Shown here piece after piece: positions 1-7,644 of a stretch of DNA of 7,644 bases. This DNA comes from Candidatus Altimarinota bacterium (GTDB taxonomy: Bacteria > Patescibacteriota > Gracilibacteria > GCA-2401425 > JAJOLG01). The position numbers and the translations under genes were made by a program. Where the stretch lies: contig JAJOLG010000002.1 of the NCBI GenBank assembly GCA_021129445.1, forward strand, positions 1-7,644, written 5' to 3'. Under the pieces are notes generated by a model, which saw only the letters and a list, made by a program, of their open reading frames with translations, was not told the origin of the DNA and searched no databases. Numbering within the stretch: the stretch's first letter is position 1; the number at the start of each line of letters is the position of its first letter.

Positions 1-845
1 TCTGTTGCATCTCACGAATCAAGTCAAAAATTACATTCAATATCGTTATTTATTCAATCTCAATCAGAATCAATTCAAGAATCACAAGAATTGTCTGTTG
101 GAATAGTGTATCAAGTTCATGGTTCATTTGGGTCCATTGGAAATGGGTCATCTTTGTCGTTATATCAATCTCAATCAGAATCCCAATCTCTTTCTCAATC
201 TGTAAATCAATCTCAATCTATATCTCAAACATTATTTTGTCATAAAAAAATTTGAGCTTCTTCATTATTTAAAAGTCAGTCTCAATCAATATCAAAAGGT
301 TTTGGAGAAAATGCATTCGCACCAGTAAAACTTGCAAAAGTTGAATCTGCATCAACTTTTCATTTTCAATATAAAATTCAATTTTGGTCTATCCAAGCTC
401 AAAAATCTCAATTTAATTGATTTATATCTTTAATAAGTGCAGTATTTTGATTTACAGGGTCTTGTGTATTATTTGATTTTGTATCATGTGAAACCTGTAT
501 CCATCATAAATTTGTATCATAAATCCATCAAGAAAGCACAAAAACATATCAATTTGCAGTTACTTTTCTTCAAATTTTTACATTAAATTTATCTCAATAC
601 TTTAAAGAAACATCTCATGTTCAAGATGCTCAATCTGGATATAAAAATGCTCAATTTGTGTTATCTATTGAATAATCATCATTGATTTTCAAATTAAAAT
701 TTCAAAAATCCAAATAATTCGTTGAATCGTGTTTTAAATATGCCTCGTTTTTTTGAGCAAAAATATTTGTTCATAAAACATTAAAAAACATCGCAAATAA
801 AAGAATATTTGCAAAAAATTTTCTGTGTATTTTTTTGTTTTTCAT
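1..845 (-). CDS. Secreted protein with thrombospondin type 3-like calcium-binding loops (C-terminus beyond window)
   Basis: Read with TGA as Gly, 281 codons are open from ATG at 845-843 to the window edge. Residues 1-30 form a signal peptide: a Lys/Arg-rich start (MKNKKIHRK), a hydrophobic core (NILLFAMFFNVLGTN) and a likely cut after NIFA before Q31. Residues 31-180 are a polar, Gly/Asn/Trp-rich region I do not recognise. From residue 185 on there are Asp/Gly loops of the DxDGDGxxDxxE type (DIDGDGLLNNEE, DIDGDGFTDGE, DSDGDGYNDKDD, DSDGDGINNDIE), as in thrombospondin type 3 or dockerin/EF-hand-like calcium sites. By family knowledge these bind Ca2+ and stiffen extracellular stalks or linkers; a surface or adhesive role is inference. 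About 32 of 33 glycines are TGA, so the standard code breaks the frame throughout. The start is the first ATG before the signal peptide; no Shine-Dalgarno is seen. The downstream domain lies outside the window. Confidence 0.85.
36..293 (-). repeat. Calcium-loop repeat region, DxDGDG type
   Basis: This covers residues 185-270 of the secreted protein: four Asp-rich loops (185-196, 208-218, 222-233, 259-270). The central two are separated by only a few residues and run into DPFPMDPNEPG, typical of type 3 repeats, where a loop is followed by a DxxP segment. At the DNA level the repeats appear on the plus strand as recurring tctcaatcagaatc words, because each Asp-Gly step is GAT-TGA. The repeat continues toward the left edge (DSGDAT is the last readable segment). 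Confidence 0.7.
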
Positions 846-870
846 AATTTTTTGTTTTAATTTTTTCTTT

Positions 871-876
871 ATTATA
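871..876 (-). promoter_or_regulatory. Candidate -10 box for the secreted protein gene
   Basis: A perfect TATAAT on the minus strand lies 25 bases before the ATG of the secreted protein gene, preceded by GG. No convincing -35 box is found at 16-18 bases: the upstream sequence is a run of T and A (878-899 can fold as CTTTTTTTT/AAAAAAAAG). If used, the 5' leader would be about 20 bases. An exact consensus is mild evidence in such AT-rich DNA. Confidence 0.4.
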
Positions 877-906
877 CCTTTTTTTTCTTAAAAAAAAAGT
901 AAAAAT

Positions 907-2115
907 TTATTTTTTTATTAAGATTTTTATTTGAATTCAATCATCAAATTTTTTTGAAACTGCTCAAAAAAATTTAAATTTTCAAAAGAAATTTTTTCAG
1001 AGTGTTTTTTGGATTTTTTCCAAGTTTAAAAATATTTTTTCTTCTGAAAAAATATTTTTTGGTAAAAATTGATTTAAATCTGCTTGTTGAAGAGAAAATT
1101 TTGATTTTTTAAAATTTTTTTGTTCATTAAATATTTTTTCTCATTTTTCTTTTAAAATAAATAAATCTCAATTATTTTTTTCTTCCAAAAATATTTTTTC
1201 TCAAAATTGTTTTTGCAGTAAAAGATTTATTTCAAAATTTTTTTCATCAAAAATTTCTCGTCAAATTTTAGCAATTTGAGGATTTTTTTCTTCTAAAATT
1301 TCAAAATTTTTTTCCAGTTTTTTTTGAAAATTTTTTCAGTAAAAAATTGCAAAAGTGTTTTTTGGATTGAATTTTAAGTTAAATTTTTCTTTTTTTTGAA
1401 AGTTTAAATTTTTTGTTTTTTCATAAAAAATTTTTTTTGAAAATCAGTAAAAAATTCATTTAATTTCATCTCAATCTTGCCAAAAAGTAAATCATCAAGA
1501 TTTAAATTTTTCTGAAATTAGCGGGAAAAAATCTCAATTTTGTAAATTTGCGTATCAAAAAATAAAGTTTCAAAAAATTGTTAAATTGTTTTTAACTTTT
1601 AAAAAATTTTTTTCATCATTTAAAATTTCTCAATTTTTAATATCGTTGATGAAATTTTGTAAAATTTTTTTGTCTTTTGAGCAGAAAAGATTTTGCTGAT
1701 TTTGCTGACAAAATGGAGCAGGGGAGTTTTCTGAAATTAAAAAATTATTTTTTTTGATAACTTTTTTTTCTTTTCAAATTGATATTTTTTTCAAAAATTT
1801 TATTGAGTTTTTTTCACTTTTTGTCAAAAGTGCATCAATTTTTTTTCATTGATAAAAAATTATTGCTCATTTTTTAAAATTCATTTCATCCAAATATGAT
1901 GTAAAAAATGGCTGATTTTTTCATAAAAATCCTCAAAATTTATCAAAATTTTTTAAATCAAATTCAATAATATAATCAATATTTTTTGAAACATTTTTGT
2001 AAATATGTCAATCAAAAAATATTTTGTAAAAAATGTATCATCACAAAAAAAGCAGTAAAATTCAGAAAAAAATAATTCAGTTGATTAAAAAGTTTTTTTG
2101 TAATTTTGTGTTCAT
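907..2115 (-). CDS. Membrane-anchored protein of unknown function, 402 aa
   Basis: With TGA as Gly, an uninterrupted frame runs from ATG 2115-2113 to TAA 909-907. The start is the first ATG upstream of a clear hydrophobic helix, residues 10-34 (LINGIIFFGILLLFLGGYIF), with MNTKLQK before it. This predicts a single N-terminal membrane anchor with the rest probably outside. The remainder is very rich in Lys, Phe, Asn, Ile and Glu and has many short F/K/N runs. It includes a segment FPLISEKFKSGGFTFWQDGD and two Cys in the middle (FCQQNQQNLFC). I do not recognise a family. The segment NIDYIIEFDLKNFDKF after the anchor faintly recalls bacterial proteins that begin 'xxYxxxDL', but this is too weak for assignment. 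It lies 61 bases upstream of the secreted Ca-loop gene in the same direction, so they may act together at the cell surface; a TATAAT in the gap could give the downstream gene its own promoter. No Shine-Dalgarno is seen. Confidence 0.75.
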
Positions 2116-2339
2116 AAATTTTTTTGAAAAAATATCGAAACATTAAATGAATGCAAAATATTTTGTATCAAAAAAAAATTTTTTAGAGATTTTGTAAAAT
2201 ATTTTTGTATAAAAGCGATTTATTTTTCCATTGTATGGAGTTTAAATTTTTATTTAAAATTTTTATTGACTTTAAAAATATTTTTACTAAATTTTTTTGG
2301 CATTTAAAATTTTCGGATTTTTTTGCAGAAAATTTCTAT
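2116..2339. other. Intergenic region between divergent gene and tRNA cluster
   Basis: These 224 bases separate the leftward membrane protein gene from the rightward tRNA cluster and must hold both promoters. No gene is seen; a plus-strand frame through 2205-2402 runs into tRNA-Ser and looks like a chance shadow. A possible leftward promoter is TTGCAT (2156-2151) and TATTTT (2134-2129) with a 16-base spacer, only a few bases before the ATG. The word aaaatattttgtat recurs imperfectly at about 2156 and 2198. All of this is weak in such AT-rich sequence. Confidence 0.4.
2266..2293 (+). promoter_or_regulatory. Candidate promoter of the tRNA cluster
   Basis: TTGACT (2266-2271) and TAAATT (2288-2293) are separated by 16 bases. 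Transcription would start about 40 bases before tRNA-Ser. The -35 matches consensus in 5 of 6 positions, the -10 in 4 of 6. Position just ahead of the first tRNA supports it; the base composition weakens it. Confidence 0.4.
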
Positions 2340-2427
2340 GGAGAGATGGCAGAGTGGTCGAATGCGACGGTCTTGAAAACCGTTGTGGGGCAACTCACCT
2401 AGGGTTCGAATCCCTATCTCTCCGCCA
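2340..2427 (+). tRNA. tRNA-Ser (anticodon UGA)
   Basis: The acceptor stem GGAGAGA (2340-2346) pairs with TCTCTCC (2417-2423), followed by discriminator G and encoded CCA. The anticodon stem ACGGT/ACCGT encloses CTTGAAA, giving anticodon TGA, which reads UCA (Ser). A long variable arm (class II) and the T-loop GTTCGAAT fit tRNA-Ser. This is not the tRNA that reads UGA as Gly: that would need anticodon UCA and a glycine-type body. Its U34 belongs to the class hydroxylated by the TrhP pathway in E. coli; a trhP gene lies 1.8 kb downstream. Confidence 0.95.
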
Positions 2428-2500
2428 GTAAAATTTAAAATTAAGATAGCTGAGTTTAAAAAGGCAACTTCTCAGTTCTTTTAATTTAAAGAATTTAAAT

Positions 2501-2585
2501 GGGTCGATATCAGAGTGGTCAAATGAGACGGGCTGTAAACCCGTTGCCTCCGGCTTCGAAGGTTCGAATCCTTCTCGGCCCACCA
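2501..2585 (+). tRNA. tRNA-Tyr (anticodon GUA)
   Basis: The acceptor GGGTCGA (2501-2507) pairs with TCGGCCC (2575-2581) with one T-G wobble, then A and encoded CCA. The anticodon stem ACGGG/CCCGT encloses CTGTAAA, anticodon GTA. A long variable arm is present, as in bacterial tRNA-Tyr, and the T-arm is GAAGG-TTCGAAT-CCTTC. It is 73 bases after tRNA-Ser and probably on the same transcript. Its 3' end is copied 157 bases downstream. Confidence 0.95.
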
Positions 2586-2671
2586 TTTTAAGATGAAGAT
2601 TTGATTTTAAAATAAGTTAGAAAGAGAACCGTAGGTTCGTTATGAGGAGCGGAGATTGTTTAAAAAAATGA

Positions 2672-2726
2672 GCGGAGCGAAATTTTTTTAAAAAAATCGT
2701 ATAGACGAATAGTCGCGGAGCGAAAT
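2672..2726 (+). repeat. Direct repeat GCGGAGCGAAAT
   Basis: Two identical 12-base copies lie at 2672-2683 and 2715-2726. A third related copy, GGAGCGGAG, ends at about 2654. The wider units also resemble each other: CGTAGGTTCGTTAT then GAGCGGAG at 2630-2654, against CGTATAGACGAATAG then GCGGAG at 2698-2720. This looks like a degenerate repeat of about 25-30 bases. Confidence 0.6.
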
Positions 2727-2742
2727 CCTTCTCGGCCAACCA
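2724..2742 (+). repeat. Partial copy of the tRNA-Tyr 3' end
   Basis: AATCCTTCTCGGCCAACCA matches 2567-2585 of tRNA-Tyr at 18 of 19 bases, including half of the T-arm, the acceptor 3' strand and CCA. Similarity weakly continues downstream (ATTT..AA..TTTGATTTT after both). There is no 5' half, so it is not a functional tRNA. It marks a 157-base direct repeat consistent with a partial tandem duplication or an attachment-site-like scar. Confidence 0.75.
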
Positions 2743-2781
2743 TTTAAAATACAAATTTGATTTTCAAAACAAATCATTTTT

Positions 2782-2857
2782 GGCTCGATAGCTCAGTTGG
2801 TAGAGCAAAGGACTGAAAATCCTTGTGTCCCCGGTTCAAGTCCGGGTCGAGCCACCA
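2782..2857 (+). tRNA. tRNA-Phe (anticodon GAA)
   Basis: The acceptor GGCTCGA (2782-2788) pairs perfectly with TCGAGCC (2847-2853), then A and encoded CCA. The D-arm AGCTCAGTTGGTAGAGC, anticodon stem AAGGA/TCCTT around CTGAAAA (anticodon GAA) and T-arm CCCGG-TTCAAGT-CCGGG are all canonical. Length is 76 bases. It is the last tRNA of the cluster and is followed 11 bases later by a terminator hairpin. Confidence 0.97.
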
Positions 2858-2868
2858 TTTTTAATTTA

Positions 2869-2896
2869 AAATACGAATTTTTATTCGTATTTTTTT
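2869..2896 (+). terminator. Rho-independent terminator of the tRNA cluster
   Basis: A perfect 10-bp stem AAATACGAAT (2869-2878) / ATTCGTATTT (2883-2892) with a TTTT loop runs into a T tract ending at 2896. It contains only two G-C pairs, but position directly after tRNA-Phe and the T tail support termination. Confidence 0.7.
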
Positions 2897-2909
2897 ATTA
2901 CACAAAAAT

Positions 2910-2938
2910 TTGATTAAAATAAAAAAAATATATATTTT
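2910..2938 (+). promoter_or_regulatory. Candidate promoter for the small membrane protein gene
   Basis: TTGATT (2910-2915), a 17-base spacer and TATTTT (2933-2938) lie just after the tRNA terminator and about 29 bases before the next ATG. TATATT at 2931-2936 is an alternative -10. The placement is sensible, but such matches are frequent by chance here. Confidence 0.35.
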
Positions 2939-2966
2939 GTGGAAAATTAAAAAATAATTTTTTATT

Positions 2967-3248
2967 ATGGGAATTATGGAAATAGATTTTTTGAATATTT
3001 TGTATCTAGTTTTATCGGTTTGTGCAATTGTTTTGACAATTTTTTTATCAGTTTTTTTGATAAGATGAATAAAATTGATTTGAAATTTAAACAAAATAAT
3101 TTGAGCAATGAATACGATGATTGATATGGCAAATGCTTTTTTAATCAAGCCTTTACAGGTTTTGGAATTTATTATTGAACATTTATGAAAATTTTTATGA
3201 AATTCTGATAAATCTGATAAATCTGATAAAATTAAGAATAAAAAATAA
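2967..3248 (+). CDS. Small single-pass membrane protein, 93 aa
   Basis: With TGA as Gly, 94 codons run from ATG 2967 to TAA 3246-3248; a second ATG three codons in (2976) is an equally possible start. Residues 8-32 are one strong hydrophobic helix (LNILYLVLSVCAIVLTIFLS), followed by an amphipathic stretch rich in Ile, Leu, Met and Asn (33-78) and a very polar tail with SDK three times and KIKNKK. This suggests a membrane anchor with a charged, probably cytoplasmic, C-terminus. I do not recognise a family. It is 63 bases upstream of the prepilin-like gene in the same direction, so a role in the same envelope apparatus is possible but only inferred. No Shine-Dalgarno is present. The overlapping minus-strand frame (2861-3148) is a shadow. 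Confidence 0.7.
3204..3230 (+). repeat. Three tandem copies of a 9-base unit (Ser-Asp-Lys)
   Basis: TCTGATAAA occurs three times without interruption and in frame, encoding SDKSDKSDK in the tail of the small membrane protein. Identical codons in each copy suggest recent slippage, so copy number may vary between strains. Confidence 0.8.
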
Positions 3249-3272
3249 TTTTATTTTAAAATAAAATTTTTT
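3247..3272 (+). terminator. Possible weak terminator or all-A/T hairpin
   Basis: AATTTTATTTT/AAAATAAAATT is a perfect 22-base palindrome directly overlapping the stop codon, followed by a T run to 3272. The stem has no G-C pairs, so termination efficiency would be low; it may simply reflect base composition. Confidence 0.25.
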
Positions 3273-3311
3273 AAATCGTGAAAAAAATTTAAAAATTACA
3301 AAAATAAAAAT

Positions 3312-4139
3312 ATGCTAAAAAATTTTTTTAACAAAAAATGAGAAACTTTGATTGAAATAATGATTGCAATTGTTATTCTTTCTACTGTTTTAATTGCAGT
3401 TTCTAATGTTTTGTGAAATTCTAAAATTACAGCAAAGTCTTCTGAACAAAGAATTGAAGCAGTGGCTCTTGCGAAGGAGGGGTTGGAGATTTTTAGATAT
3501 GTCAGAAAAGAGAATTACATGCAATATTCTGATAAAAAAAGGATTTGTTGGAATTTTGTTATAGATAATGATTGATCTACAAATCCTGCATTGCGGAATT
3601 ATTGAAATTGAACGCTTGAAGCAGATTGATCTTGATGAGATGATGATAAAGAATGTGAGGAAAATAGTGATTCTTCAAAAGCCTGATCAGCAAATTACAT
3701 TTTTGAAGATTGAAAAATGTATTTACCTTTGCAAAATTTATCAGATTCTAGTTATTGAAGATTTTTTTTGAGTTCAAAATGACAAGATTTGAATGAAATT
3801 TGGGTAAAAAAAGATGATTGAGATGTTTATTCCGATTTAGTAATTTTTCAATTATGTAGACATAAAGATACTTGACTTATAATGTCTTGTGAAAGTATGT
3901 GATTTGCAGATGATAAAAAAGAAAAGTTGCCATATTTTAGAGTTTTGAAAATGGAGTATGTGAATCATTTTTGAGAAAAATGTTCTTGAACAAATGGCTG
4001 TGACACAACAAAACCAAAATCTTTAAATCAGATTAAAGTAACTTCAACTGTTATTTGGTCATCTTGACCTTGAATTCAAAGTGTTGATTTAACAACAATT
4101 TTTACAGATTACGAAGACAGGGGTGACAGAGAAAGTTAA
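3312..4139 (+). CDS. Type IV prepilin-like protein (PilV / minor pseudopilin type)
   Basis: With TGA as Gly, the frame gives 275 residues from ATG 3312 to TAA 4137-4139. The N-terminus MLKNFFNKKGETLIEIMIAI is a class III prepilin signal: a short basic leader, Gly10 at -1, the conserved Glu at +5, then a hydrophobic helix to about residue 34. Prepilin peptidase would cut after Gly10; that Gly is a TGA codon. The residue at +1 is Glu rather than the usual Phe. The following helix (SEQRIEAVALAKEGLEIFRYVRKENY) and the C-terminal IKVTSTVIW strand with SVDLTTI resemble the PilV/PulI-like pilins common in CPR genomes. The middle is Asp/Gly/Ser-rich (ADGSGGDDDKECEENSDSS) with several Cys (79, 115, 182, 193, 224, 230) that could form disulfides. 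It would form part of a pilus or pseudopilus at the membrane. No other pilus genes are in the window. A terminator follows. Confidence 0.85.
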
Positions 4140-4171
4140 AAAATTTTTTGCAAGTGATAGAAAAATTTTTT

Positions 4172-4199
4172 AAATTCAGAGAAAATCTGAATTTTTTTT
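4172..4199 (+). terminator. Rho-independent terminator after the prepilin gene
   Basis: A 9-bp perfect stem AAATTCAGA (4172-4180) / TCTGAATTT (4186-4194) with a GAAAA loop is followed by eight T (4192-4199). Lying 32 bases after the prepilin stop and ahead of trhP, it separates the two transcription units. Confidence 0.75.
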
Positions 4200-4220
4200 A
4201 TCAAAAAATAAAATATTTTA

Positions 4221-5684
4221 ATGAAATTACCAGAATTATTATTGCCAGCAGGAGATATAAAAAAAGCATATTATGCATTTGAATATTGAGCAGATGCGAT
4301 TTATTGCGGGGTGCCAATGTTTGCGCTTCGTACTCGTGCAAATGTTTTTACAGAAAAAGATATTGCGGAAATTATTGATTTTGCGAATAAAAATGGTAAA
4401 AAAGTTTACATAACTTTAAACTGATTTCCTCATCAAAATATGATTCCTGCTTTAAGAAAGCATTTAGAATTTTTGAAAAATGCAAAACCGCATTGAATTA
4501 TTTTGGCTGATGCATGAGTTTTAGGGTTGGCAAATGAAATTTGTTCAGATATTGATAAACATTTATCCGTGCAGGCTTCAACGGTTTCCGAATCTTGAAT
4601 TAGATTTTGGGCAAAAAATTGAGTGAAAAGGATTATTTTGGCAAGGGAAATTGCAATAAAAGAGGTGAAAAAAATTCACGAAATGTTTCCAGAAATTGAG
4701 CTTGAATATTTTGTGCATTGAGCAGTTTGTATGGCATATTCTTGAAGGTGTTTGCTTTCAAATTTTATGGCGCAAAGAGATGCAAATCGCTGAATGTGCG
4801 CGCATTCTTGTCGTTGGAATTATCAAGTTTTTGATGAGGAGTGAAGAAAATTTGATTTATCAGAAAGGGAAAAAACTCAAAAAGAGGATTGAAATTTGGA
4901 AGGTCAAGAGTCATTTTTACCGTGATTTATTGTAGATTCAATCGATTGAAAACCGATTTCAATTCGTGAATTTGAAAAAACTCATATTTGGGAAGAAGAG
5001 CAGAGAATGTGAGAATTTATACCAGTTGAGCAAGATATTCACTGAACTCACATTATGTCGTCAAGAGATATGTGTATGATTGAATATTTGAAAGAAATTA
5101 TAGACTCATGAGTTTGCTCGTTGAAAGTCGAGTGAAGAAATAAAACTTTTTACTATGCAATTTCAGTTGCAAGGGCTTACAGAAAGGCTTTGGACGACAT
5201 TGCAGAATGAAAAGAATTTGATAAAAATTTATGGAAAGAAATTCATGCGACAGCAAACAGGTGATTTTTTGCATGATTTGTGAACTGAAAACCAAAATCT
5301 GAATGACAACAATATGAAGCAAATCGCTCAACCGCTGATTTTGAATTTGCATGAGTTGTTGTGAATAAAATTTGAAAATGATACATTGTTTGAGATTGAG
5401 ATTTTTTCTGATTTCCAAAATGACATAAATTTGAAGAAAATTTTTTGATTGTTGAGCCAAAAAATCGTATTGAAAAAAATTCTGAATTGATTTTAGTTTG
5501 AAAAAAAATTCCTGATGATAAAAAATTTTTTGTTGAAAAAATAATTTTTTGATGAAATGAAGCCGATGTTTTACATTGATGAAATTGAAATTGACTGATT
5601 TGAGTGTCTGATGAAATTTTTGAAACTGCAAAAGAATGAAGTATTTTGAGACAAGTTGTGAAAAATGAATGATTGAAAAAATAA
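4221..5684 (+). CDS. trhP: tRNA uridine-34 hydroxylase TrhP (YegQ), peptidase U32 family
   Basis: With TGA as Gly this is a 487-residue protein from ATG 4221 to TAA 5682-5684, matching TrhP/YegQ along its length. Seen: the N-terminal barrel start PELLLPAGDIKKAYYAFEYG and ADAIYCGVPMFALRTRAN (4-41), HLSVQAST (114-121), the U32 signature FVHGAVCMAYSGRC (164-177), CLLSNFMAQRDANRGMCAHSCRWNY (177-201), GTHIMSSRD (275-283), SLKVEGRNKTFYYA (300-313) and a C-terminal beta domain. Cysteines 170, 177, 193 and 197 lie in the region that binds an Fe-S cluster in U32 hydroxylases. In E. coli, TrhP uses prephenate to make 5-hydroxyuridine at U34 of tRNAs such as Ser(UGA). The protein is somewhat longer than E. 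coli YegQ, mainly between residues 203 and 262. About 39 of 44 glycines are TGA. It is 9 bases ahead of recR, probably an operon. No Shine-Dalgarno. Membership of the U32 family is certain; the exact substrate (tRNA or rRNA) is inferred from similarity to YegQ. Confidence 0.9.
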
Positions 5685-5693
5685 AATTTTTTT

Positions 5694-6323
5694 ATGAATC
5701 AAAAAATAGTTGCAGAGCCATTGCAAAAAATTATTGATAATTTTAAATCTTTACCGTGAATTTGAGAAAAAACTGCCCAAAAATTGGCATTTTTTTCTGT
5801 TAAACAAAGCGAAGATTTTTTAGGTGAGTTTTGAAAAAATTTTTCTGATTTGAAAAAAAATATTACAGAATGTGAAAAATGTTGTAATTTTACGGAAAAA
5901 AATCCAAATGAAGAAAAAAATTTTTGTGAATTTTGTAAAAAAATTTGAAGGGATGAAAAAATTTTATGTGTGGTTGAAAATCCATTTGATATTTTTCCAA
6001 TCGAAAAATCTTGAATTTTTAAGTGATTTTATCATATTTTACATTGAGTAATTTCGCCAATTGACTGAATTTTTGCAGAAAATTTGAGGATTTGAAAATT
6101 ACTTGAAAGGTTGAAAAATGAAAATTTTGAAGAAATAATTTTAGCGATAAATCCGAGTTTAGAAGGTGAGGCGACAGCAATTTATATTTCAAGAAAAATT
6201 CAAGAAATGTGAGTTTCTGTGAAGATTACAGCACTTGCGAAAGGTATTTCTGTTGGTGGGGATTTGGAATATACTGATGAATTGACGGTGAAAAAAAGTT
6301 TGGAGAATAGAGTGAATGTGTAG
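5694..6323 (+). CDS. recR: Recombination mediator RecR
   Basis: With TGA as Gly, 209 residues run from ATG 5694 to TAG 6321-6323, close to the usual ~200. Domains in order: helix-hairpin-helix [14 protein letters not shown] (20-33), where both Gly are TGA; a C4 zinc finger with CEKC (60-63) and CEFC (78-81); the Toprim domain starting [10 protein letters not shown] (90-99), with GFYHILHGVISPIDGI (111-126) and [14 protein letters not shown] (152-165); and the C-terminal [19 protein letters not shown] (180-198). RecR forms a ring clamp on DNA and, with RecO (and RecF), loads RecA on gapped or SSB-coated DNA. It follows trhP by 9 bases and is convergent with ligA. One oddity: [13 protein letters not shown] replaces the more usual E-x-x-x-D-x-x-A-x-E pattern of the Toprim start, though the acidic residues are largely kept. 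Confidence 0.96.
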
Positions 6324-6363
6324 GGTTTTTATGATTTTGATTTAAATCAATTGTTTTTCAAAT
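6324..6363. other. Convergent intergenic region with 14-base palindrome
   Basis: Only 40 bases separate the stops of recR and ligA. TTGATTTAAATCAA (6337-6350) is a perfect palindrome followed on the plus strand by TTGTTTTTC; it can fold as a 5-bp stem with a TTAA loop. It might serve as a weak bidirectional terminator, but stem and T tract are both poor. Confidence 0.3.
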
Positions 6364-7644
6364 TTATCAAATAACTTCCAAAAATTCTTCCTCTCATATC
6401 AATTTTACTCATAATCTTTTTCATTTCTCATATTTTTCCCCAGAACTTTCACCGAAAAGCACAAAATCTGTATTTTTTGATACCGAAGAAGAAACTTTTC
6501 ATCATCTTTCTTTGATGATTTTTTTTGCATCTTCCCTTGAAAATTTTTTCAAAGCTCAGGTTAAAACAAAAATTTTTCCTTCAAAAATTTGCTCCAAATT
6601 ATTTTCAATTTTTTCAATTTGTGGATAAACTCAATATTCTTCAAGTTTTTGTAGTAATTTTAAATTTTTTTCTTCTGTGAAAAATTTTTTTATTGATTTA
6701 AAAATTTTTTCTCAAATTCATTCCAAGTTTGAAATTTTTTCCTCTTCTTCCAAGATTTTTTTAGAAATTTTTGATAATTTTAAAATTTTTATTTCTTTAA
6801 AAATTTCTTTTTTTTCTGTATTTTCTCATAAAATATCAAACATTGAAATTTGTTCAGTGTTTTTTTGCTTTTCTTCTCAAATTTTTATTTTTAAAGTTTC
6901 AGAATTCATATTTTTGCTCAAAAATTTTCACAAGATCTCAGCAGATTCCTTTCAAGTAAAAGGAATTCAAATTGCAAAAAGGAATTTTGAAATTTGTGGA
7001 TGTTTTGATTGTTGGATTGACTCAATTAAATTTTTGATTTTTTTCTCTTTAAAAAGCGGAAGTCAGACCAAATCTCATTCTTGAAGTGAAAAAATATCGG
7101 AAAAATCTTCAATAATTTTATTTTCAATCAATAAATCCAAAACTTTTTCTCAAAGCCCTTCAATATTCAGTCAATCACGGCTCGTAAAATGTGCCAAACT
7201 TCTCAAATGCCTTGTTCAGCATTTTGGATTTTCGCATTTATATGCTACTTCTCACTCATTTTTTACAATTTTTGAATCACAAACTGGACAATTTTTTGGT
7301 GGAAAAATCTTTTTCGTTTCCTTTGGTCTAAGTTCCGGAATGATTGATTTGATTTTTGGTATAATATCTCAGGCTTTTTCAATAATTGCAGTGTCTCAAA
7401 TTCTCACATCGAGTTTTTCAATCTCGTCAAAATTATGTAAAGTTGCCCTTGAAATTGTCGATCAAAGTAGTTCAAATGGCTTCATAATCGCAACTGGTGT
7501 GATTGCACCAGTTCTTCAAACTTGATAATGAATATCTAAAATTTCAGATTGCGCAACAGATGCTGGAAATTTGTATGCAACAGCCCGGCGGGGGGATTTT
7601 GCAGTAGATCAAAGTCTTTTTTGGATTTCTTTGTCATTGATTTT
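6364..7644 (-). CDS. ligA: NAD+-dependent DNA ligase LigA (N-terminus beyond window)
   Basis: The last 426 residues plus TAA (6366-6364) of LigA are open with TGA as Gly; the N-terminal part, including the Ia domain and the KxDG active lysine, lies beyond the right edge. Numbered from the edge: end of the adenylation domain [15 protein letters not shown] (14-28), holding the nucleotide-binding Arg/Lys motif; OB fold from [12 protein letters not shown] (41-52) to AGDIIPKI (91-98); zinc finger with Cys 119, 122, 137, 142; helix-hairpin-helix repeats (SRDGLNIEGLGEKVLDLL, FLFAIGIPFTG, LEGIGEKIFKSI); and a C-terminal BRCT domain ([18 protein letters not shown] to [15 protein letters not shown]). 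It seals nicks in replication and repair. The HhH domain carries an extra segment of roughly 40 residues between LGKFL (238-242) and LEGIG (307-311), rich in Lys/Glu and containing QISMF (265-269). It converges on recR. Confidence 0.96.

Follow-up and report, generated by a model that had tools for sequence, protein, structure and literature searches.

The reading of UGA as glycine is established for the SR1 and BD1-5 lineages (PMC8629427, PMC8080830; Campbell 2013 as cited there). A 2026 review restricts this reassignment to Gracilibacteria/JAEDAM01 and dates it to the last common ancestor of that group (PMC13293708), and the 53 UGA-to-glycine genomes recorded in a tRNA survey of the same year all belong to the class JAEDAM01 (PMC13092985). 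Besides these, the methods of a 2022 vent survey mention one MAG of the GTDB order GCA-2401425, 4559-240_metabat1_scaf2bin.085, whose open reading frames (ORFs) average 85 amino acids under code 11 and 277 amino acids under code 25; the only other genome of the order named there, NVTB00000000.1, was called with code 11 (PMC9793634). This pair, one member with code 25 and one with code 11, has the same pattern as the two genomes of the order compared below (G000 and G001), and the vent MAG may be G000 itself or a relative of it. The bare fact of recoding in the order GCA-2401425 may already be in print, and in the passages of the vent survey that concern this order the reassignment is neither demonstrated codon by codon nor tested through release factors, and a separate origin is not claimed (PMC9793634). 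No statement of a separate origin of UGA-to-glycine was found in the literature within our scope, outside which lay most subscription journals and all bioRxiv preprints.

The window analysed here is a stretch of 7,644 nucleotides and constitutes contig C38 of the genome labelled G000; G001 is the second sampled genome of the same order. Re-calling of the window with translation table 25 gave seven ORFs of 93-487 amino acids on both strands, and table 11 gave short shadow ORFs only, as the sequence-only reading had anticipated for standard-code gene callers. Its claim that the seven genes are open only if TGA is a sense codon was borne out by the re-calling together with the frame counts. TGA occurs 159 times in frame in the seven genes (51 and 128 times in the other two frames), TAA and TAG together occur six times in frame, every one as a terminal stop (79 and 69 times in the other frames), and under table 11 the open runs within the genes reach 52 codons at most. 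TGA accounts for 159 of the 180 glycine codons of the window.

The first of these genes (3..845, minus strand) runs off the contig and encodes a large secreted protein with a signal-like N terminus and TSP3-like calcium repeats (PF18884, 24.2 bits, just below the cut-off of 25), with 32 in-frame TGA and a single GGN codon. The TSP3-like repeats are Asp-rich and nearly all of their glycines are TGA; the product, truncated at the end of the contig, probably sits on the cell surface. The neighbouring gene on the same strand (907..2115) encodes a membrane-anchored protein of 402 amino acids with 28 in-frame TGA, for which the profile searches returned no family match. On the plus strand lie the genes for tRNA-Ser with anticodon UGA (2340..2427), tRNA-Tyr (GUA; 2501..2585) and tRNA-Phe (GAA; 2782..2857), followed by those for a small membrane protein of 93 amino acids (2967..3248; 5 in-frame TGA) and a type IV pilin-like protein of PilV/ComGE-like character with an N-terminal methylation motif (3312..4139; 19 in-frame TGA). 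The next plus-strand gene (4221..5684; 39 in-frame TGA) encodes a TrhP-like tRNA hydroxylase of peptidase family U32, which scored 264.9 bits with PF01136 and 375.5 bits with PRK15452; as the latter is below the curated cut-off of 534, 'TrhP-like U32 family' would be a safer label than TrhP. It is followed by recR (5694..6323, plus strand; TIGR00615, 215 bits, cut-off 162.55), with 10 in-frame TGA and a TAG stop. The window closes with ligA (6364..7644, minus strand; NF005932, 415 bits, cut-off 369), of which the C-terminal 426 amino acids with 26 in-frame TGA are present, the gene being cut by the contig end.

The residue behind UGA was determined on columns of 17 ribosomal and SecY proteins with a conservation of 90% or more among standard-code relatives. 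TGA was found at 132 such columns, where the relatives carry glycine in 129 cases, proline in 2, arginine in 1 and tryptophan in none, and TGG at conserved columns fell on tryptophan in 5 of 5 cases. In a wider set, with proteins of every kind, glycine stood opposite 212 of the 373 TGA codons that could be aligned, the next residue being A with 27. When TGA was masked as X, the masked positions of LigA and RecR mostly fell on glycines of solved relatives, as in QVxRTGAITP against QVGRTGAITP, LPxIx against LPGIG and LHxVISPIDxI against LHGVISPIEGV; for the TrhP-like protein masked in the same way no solved relative was found. Alignment of the window LigA with 18 standard-code LigA proteins placed its TGA in 16 columns with a glycine majority (11 of them at 90% or above) and in 3 with an alanine majority. 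The sequence-only reading had placed TGA on invariant glycines of these families, which stands for most positions of RecR and LigA and does not extend to every site that it named, as the second x of the LigA BRCT motif 'ERGG' is A in the best solved LigA. Its exclusion of tryptophan is upheld, and the outcome that it had named as a refutation, TGA columns aligned to residues other than glycine, did not occur, as the columns proved to be glycine. A change of UGA to tryptophan is common in bacteria (PMC8629427), but tryptophan is carried here by TGG, and a clear tRNA-Trp(CCA) with G73 and a full 5-bp anticodon stem lies at G000:C4:12830-12904; with no tryptophan among the conserved TGA columns, a reading of UGA as tryptophan or any residue other than glycine is so improbable that it can be set aside. 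Evidence from sequence could hardly speak more strongly for glycine as the meaning of UGA in G000.

The assembly of G000 comprises 673 kb in 77 contigs and is listed as 94.8% complete with 0.54% contamination. Genome-scale counts were made over 15 of its stretches (222 kb) and the window, 230 kb in all, where the density of ORFs of at least 100 amino acids rose from 0.09 with table 11 to 0.87 with table 25. In-frame TGA runs throughout the genes of G000, as expected for NCBI genetic code 25, and makes up 4031 of the 4745 glycine codons in the 230 kb, with a share of 77-91% in each of 16 contigs. In the ribosomal genes the share reaches 93%, compared with 0-68% in 23 other code-25 genomes. The ribosomal genes of G000 form one contiguous cluster, but those of G001 are found on two contigs, with rplB on C5 and the genes downstream of it on C9.

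The sequence-only reading had proposed to look elsewhere in the genome for a loss of prfB, the gene for RF2, and for a tRNA-Gly with anticodon UCA. A profile search of the 94.8% complete assembly found no prfB, in agreement with the proposal, and the sensitivity of the search can be judged from the recovery of LigA and rplB despite 25-26 in-frame TGA. No prfA was found in the assembly either, with a profile that 39 of 40 relatives match, and as both genes are missing, an assembly gap keeps some probability as the cause of the missing prfB. A real absence of prfA from G000 was not accepted, because genes end on UAA and UAG and the assembly is incomplete elsewhere too. On the second point the outcome was less informative, as tRNA-Gly(UCA) was not among the 26 tRNAs found, and tRNAs for initiator Met, Glu, Leu(UAA) and Arg(UCU), among others, are likewise missing from the assembly. 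Since these essential tRNAs and prfA are absent too, the missing tRNA-Gly(UCA) says little, and in view of the gaps it is by inference that we name tRNA-Gly(UCA) as the decoder. A search for intron-bearing tRNAs, in which a UCA tRNA could be hidden, returned one implausible candidate only. The tRNA-Gly that is present has the anticodon UCC, one base from UCA.

Apart from the clear tRNA-Trp, a second tRNA(CCA) is located at G000:C8:1944-2019 and differs from it by C1:G72, A73 and G37. It scored 63.1 bits in one tRNA scan, was unlisted in another and had no close match in 19 relatives. We rejected it as a reader of UGA, since neither C1:G72 nor A73 belongs to the identity elements of a glycine tRNA and C34 is not expected to pair with A. 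A further tRNA with anticodon CCG (G000:C5:3026-3102) has an unusual D arm and appears with A20, which favours arginine, but also with G73. The codons CGA and CGG are rare in G000 (3.7 and 5.3 per 10,000, or 23 CGA and 33 CGG in the longer ORFs of the 230 kb), and the aligned ones are too few to decide between arginine and tryptophan.

The other sampled genome of the order uses the standard code, as the ORF density of G001 is 0.900 with table 11 against 0.904 with table 25, and it carries a prfB above cut-off (394 bits). The closest relatives of G000 are not recoded: G001 and the families f11, f13 and f16 all have prfB above cut-off and show no in-frame TGA in rplB, LigA or prfB. The sampled standard-code families have prfB with the exception of G126, in which only its prfA matched. 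The code-25 families f12, f15, f22 and f24 are without prfB above cut-off and nearly all have TGA in prfA. Within f22 (G065, G078, G090, G112, G209 and G217) no member has prfB above cut-off, and the TGA share of glycine codons in ribosomal genes ranges from 0.00 (G209, GC 0.56) to 0.67 (G090, GC 0.31); in the high-G+C members UGA may be in the course of being lost as a glycine codon without RF2 being regained.

The main tree was computed from the 17 ribosomal and SecY proteins of 31 genomes (LG+C20+F+G4, SH-aLRT), with an AU test of topologies; the genes of G000 in it all come from one contig (C4) and are rich in TGA. G000 and G001 were paired with a support of 100 and joined with f13/f16 at 95, within the standard-code families. 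FastTree recovered the same pair at 1.0, likewise when rooted with outgroup phyla, and in the rooted tree the larger clade around the pair includes, among named groups, Peribacteria and Peregrinibacteria, the code-25 families forming a clade of their own (0.997). Mapped onto the tree, the code changes twice. Forcing G000 together with f12, f15, f22 and f24 lowered lnL by 100 (AU p 5.5e-69, 17 proteins), and the assignment of the window to the SR1/Gracilibacteria branch made in the sequence-only reading is not supported, as G000 groups with the standard-code G001 and a common clade with the code-25 families is rejected. The tree of the window LigA also unites the code-25 families in one clade with G000 outside (95/94) and gives p 0.04 for a common clade; it does not contain the pairing of G000 with G001, which was not rejected (p 0.087).

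A single origin, in which G000 is simply one more member of the known code-25 branch and has been drawn to G001 by an artefact, would account for the same codon, amino acid and prfB loss in G000 and in f12, f15, f22 and f24, and reviews know the code only from that branch (PMC13293708). The lineage is represented by only one recoded genome, a fragmented MAG, which has a long branch and deviating composition in the 17-protein tree, and the trees are poorly supported at some nodes of their backbone. However, the AU test rejects the common clade with both data sets, and the taxonomy label places G000 in the order of G001 and not in that of the code-25 families. An artefact driven by A+T should pull G000 toward the A+T-rich code-25 families, which is the opposite of the placement seen, and we hold a single origin of this kind to be improbable. 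Rather less probable still is that UGA meant glycine in the ancestor of the whole class and that it returned to a stop in G001 and in the other families with the standard code. The presence of the code in two places of one class would fit such an ancestry, but two gains suffice, a single gain would need a reversion and a regained RF2 in each of several standard-code families in between, and G001 retains no trace of in-frame TGA. A chimeric assembly, in which code-25 contigs were binned with a standard-code relative of G001, comes to mind with a MAG-like assembly of 77 contigs, but the genes that carry the phylogenetic signal are themselves the TGA-rich ones and all lie on a single contig (C4), the window LigA agrees in placing G000 outside the code-25 clade, and the TGA share and GC are even over the 16 contigs, with a listed contamination that is low; we consider a chimera highly improbable.

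The second event may also have begun with a tRNA-Gly(UCA) gene that was transferred from a bacterium with code 25, or from a phage of such a bacterium, with the loss of RF2 following. A vehicle exists, as an Absconditicoccaceae phage carries tRNA-Gly(UCA) (PMC13059738), and a common source would fit a class in which this unusual choice of amino acid was made twice; however, the resident tRNA-Gly(UCC) would need only one C-to-A change to the same effect, and we regard transfer as unlikely, though with a real chance. The trees would point to a separate event in either case and would look alike for a tRNA that arose de novo and for one that was transferred.

We return to the reading that we prefer, in which G000 reads UGA as glycine, uses it as its dominant glycine codon and very probably acquired the reassignment independently of Absconditabacteria and BD1-5/Gracilibacteria, as a member of a Peregrinibacteria-like order of which the other sampled genome is standard. 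As G001 is standard and retains prfB, and given the position of G000 in the tree, UGA-to-glycine most likely arose a second time. The route may have started with strong A+T pressure under which UGA became rare as a stop, RF2 would then have been lost, and a tRNA-Gly would have gained the anticodon UCA, either from the resident UCC tRNA that differs by one base or by arrival from elsewhere. RF1 would terminate genes at UAA and UAG, and a G-to-U drift could have turned ancestral GGA codons into UGA. GGA is the main glycine codon of G001. What the data themselves document is the meaning of UGA by homology, the lack of prfB in the assembly, the even use of the codon over 16 contigs and the place of G000 in the tree; the UCA tRNA, RF1 and the sequence of steps belong to the inferred part.

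It appears likely that UGA-to-glycine has two or more origins in a single class of Patescibacteria, which would make the class predisposed to it, through its tRNA-Gly, its glycyl-tRNA synthetase or a low need for RF2, and that UGA nearly replaced the GGN box in the second lineage. A second origin, if true, would give a change so far seen as one accident of history a natural replicate, and it could then be asked why glycine was chosen again in this class and tryptophan in other bacteria, and which step came first, the tRNA, the synthetase or the loss of RF2. For such questions G001 offers an outgroup from within the order that uses the standard code. Gene callers that select table 25 by membership in the known branch would mis-annotate this order.

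Absconditabacteria (SR1) and BD1-5/Gracilibacteria (JAEDAM01) share with G000 the use of UGA for glycine and UGG for tryptophan, the stops UAA and UAG, the lack of prfB and a low G+C content. Unlike that branch, G000 lies within Peregrinibacteria-like families that use the standard code, next to a genome of its own order that does so too, and UGA takes 93% of its ribosomal-gene glycine codons against 0-68%. Mycoplasmatales and insect symbionts resemble it in RF2 loss, capture of UGA and reduced genomes of low G+C (PMC8629427), but UGA became tryptophan in them and glycine in G000. The CGA/CGG-to-tryptophan change of Absconditabacteria (PMC8629427) occurred in the same class, likewise at low G+C and with rare CGA and CGG. 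The code of G000 is known in kind, and what is new is its probable independent origin and its near-takeover of the glycine box.
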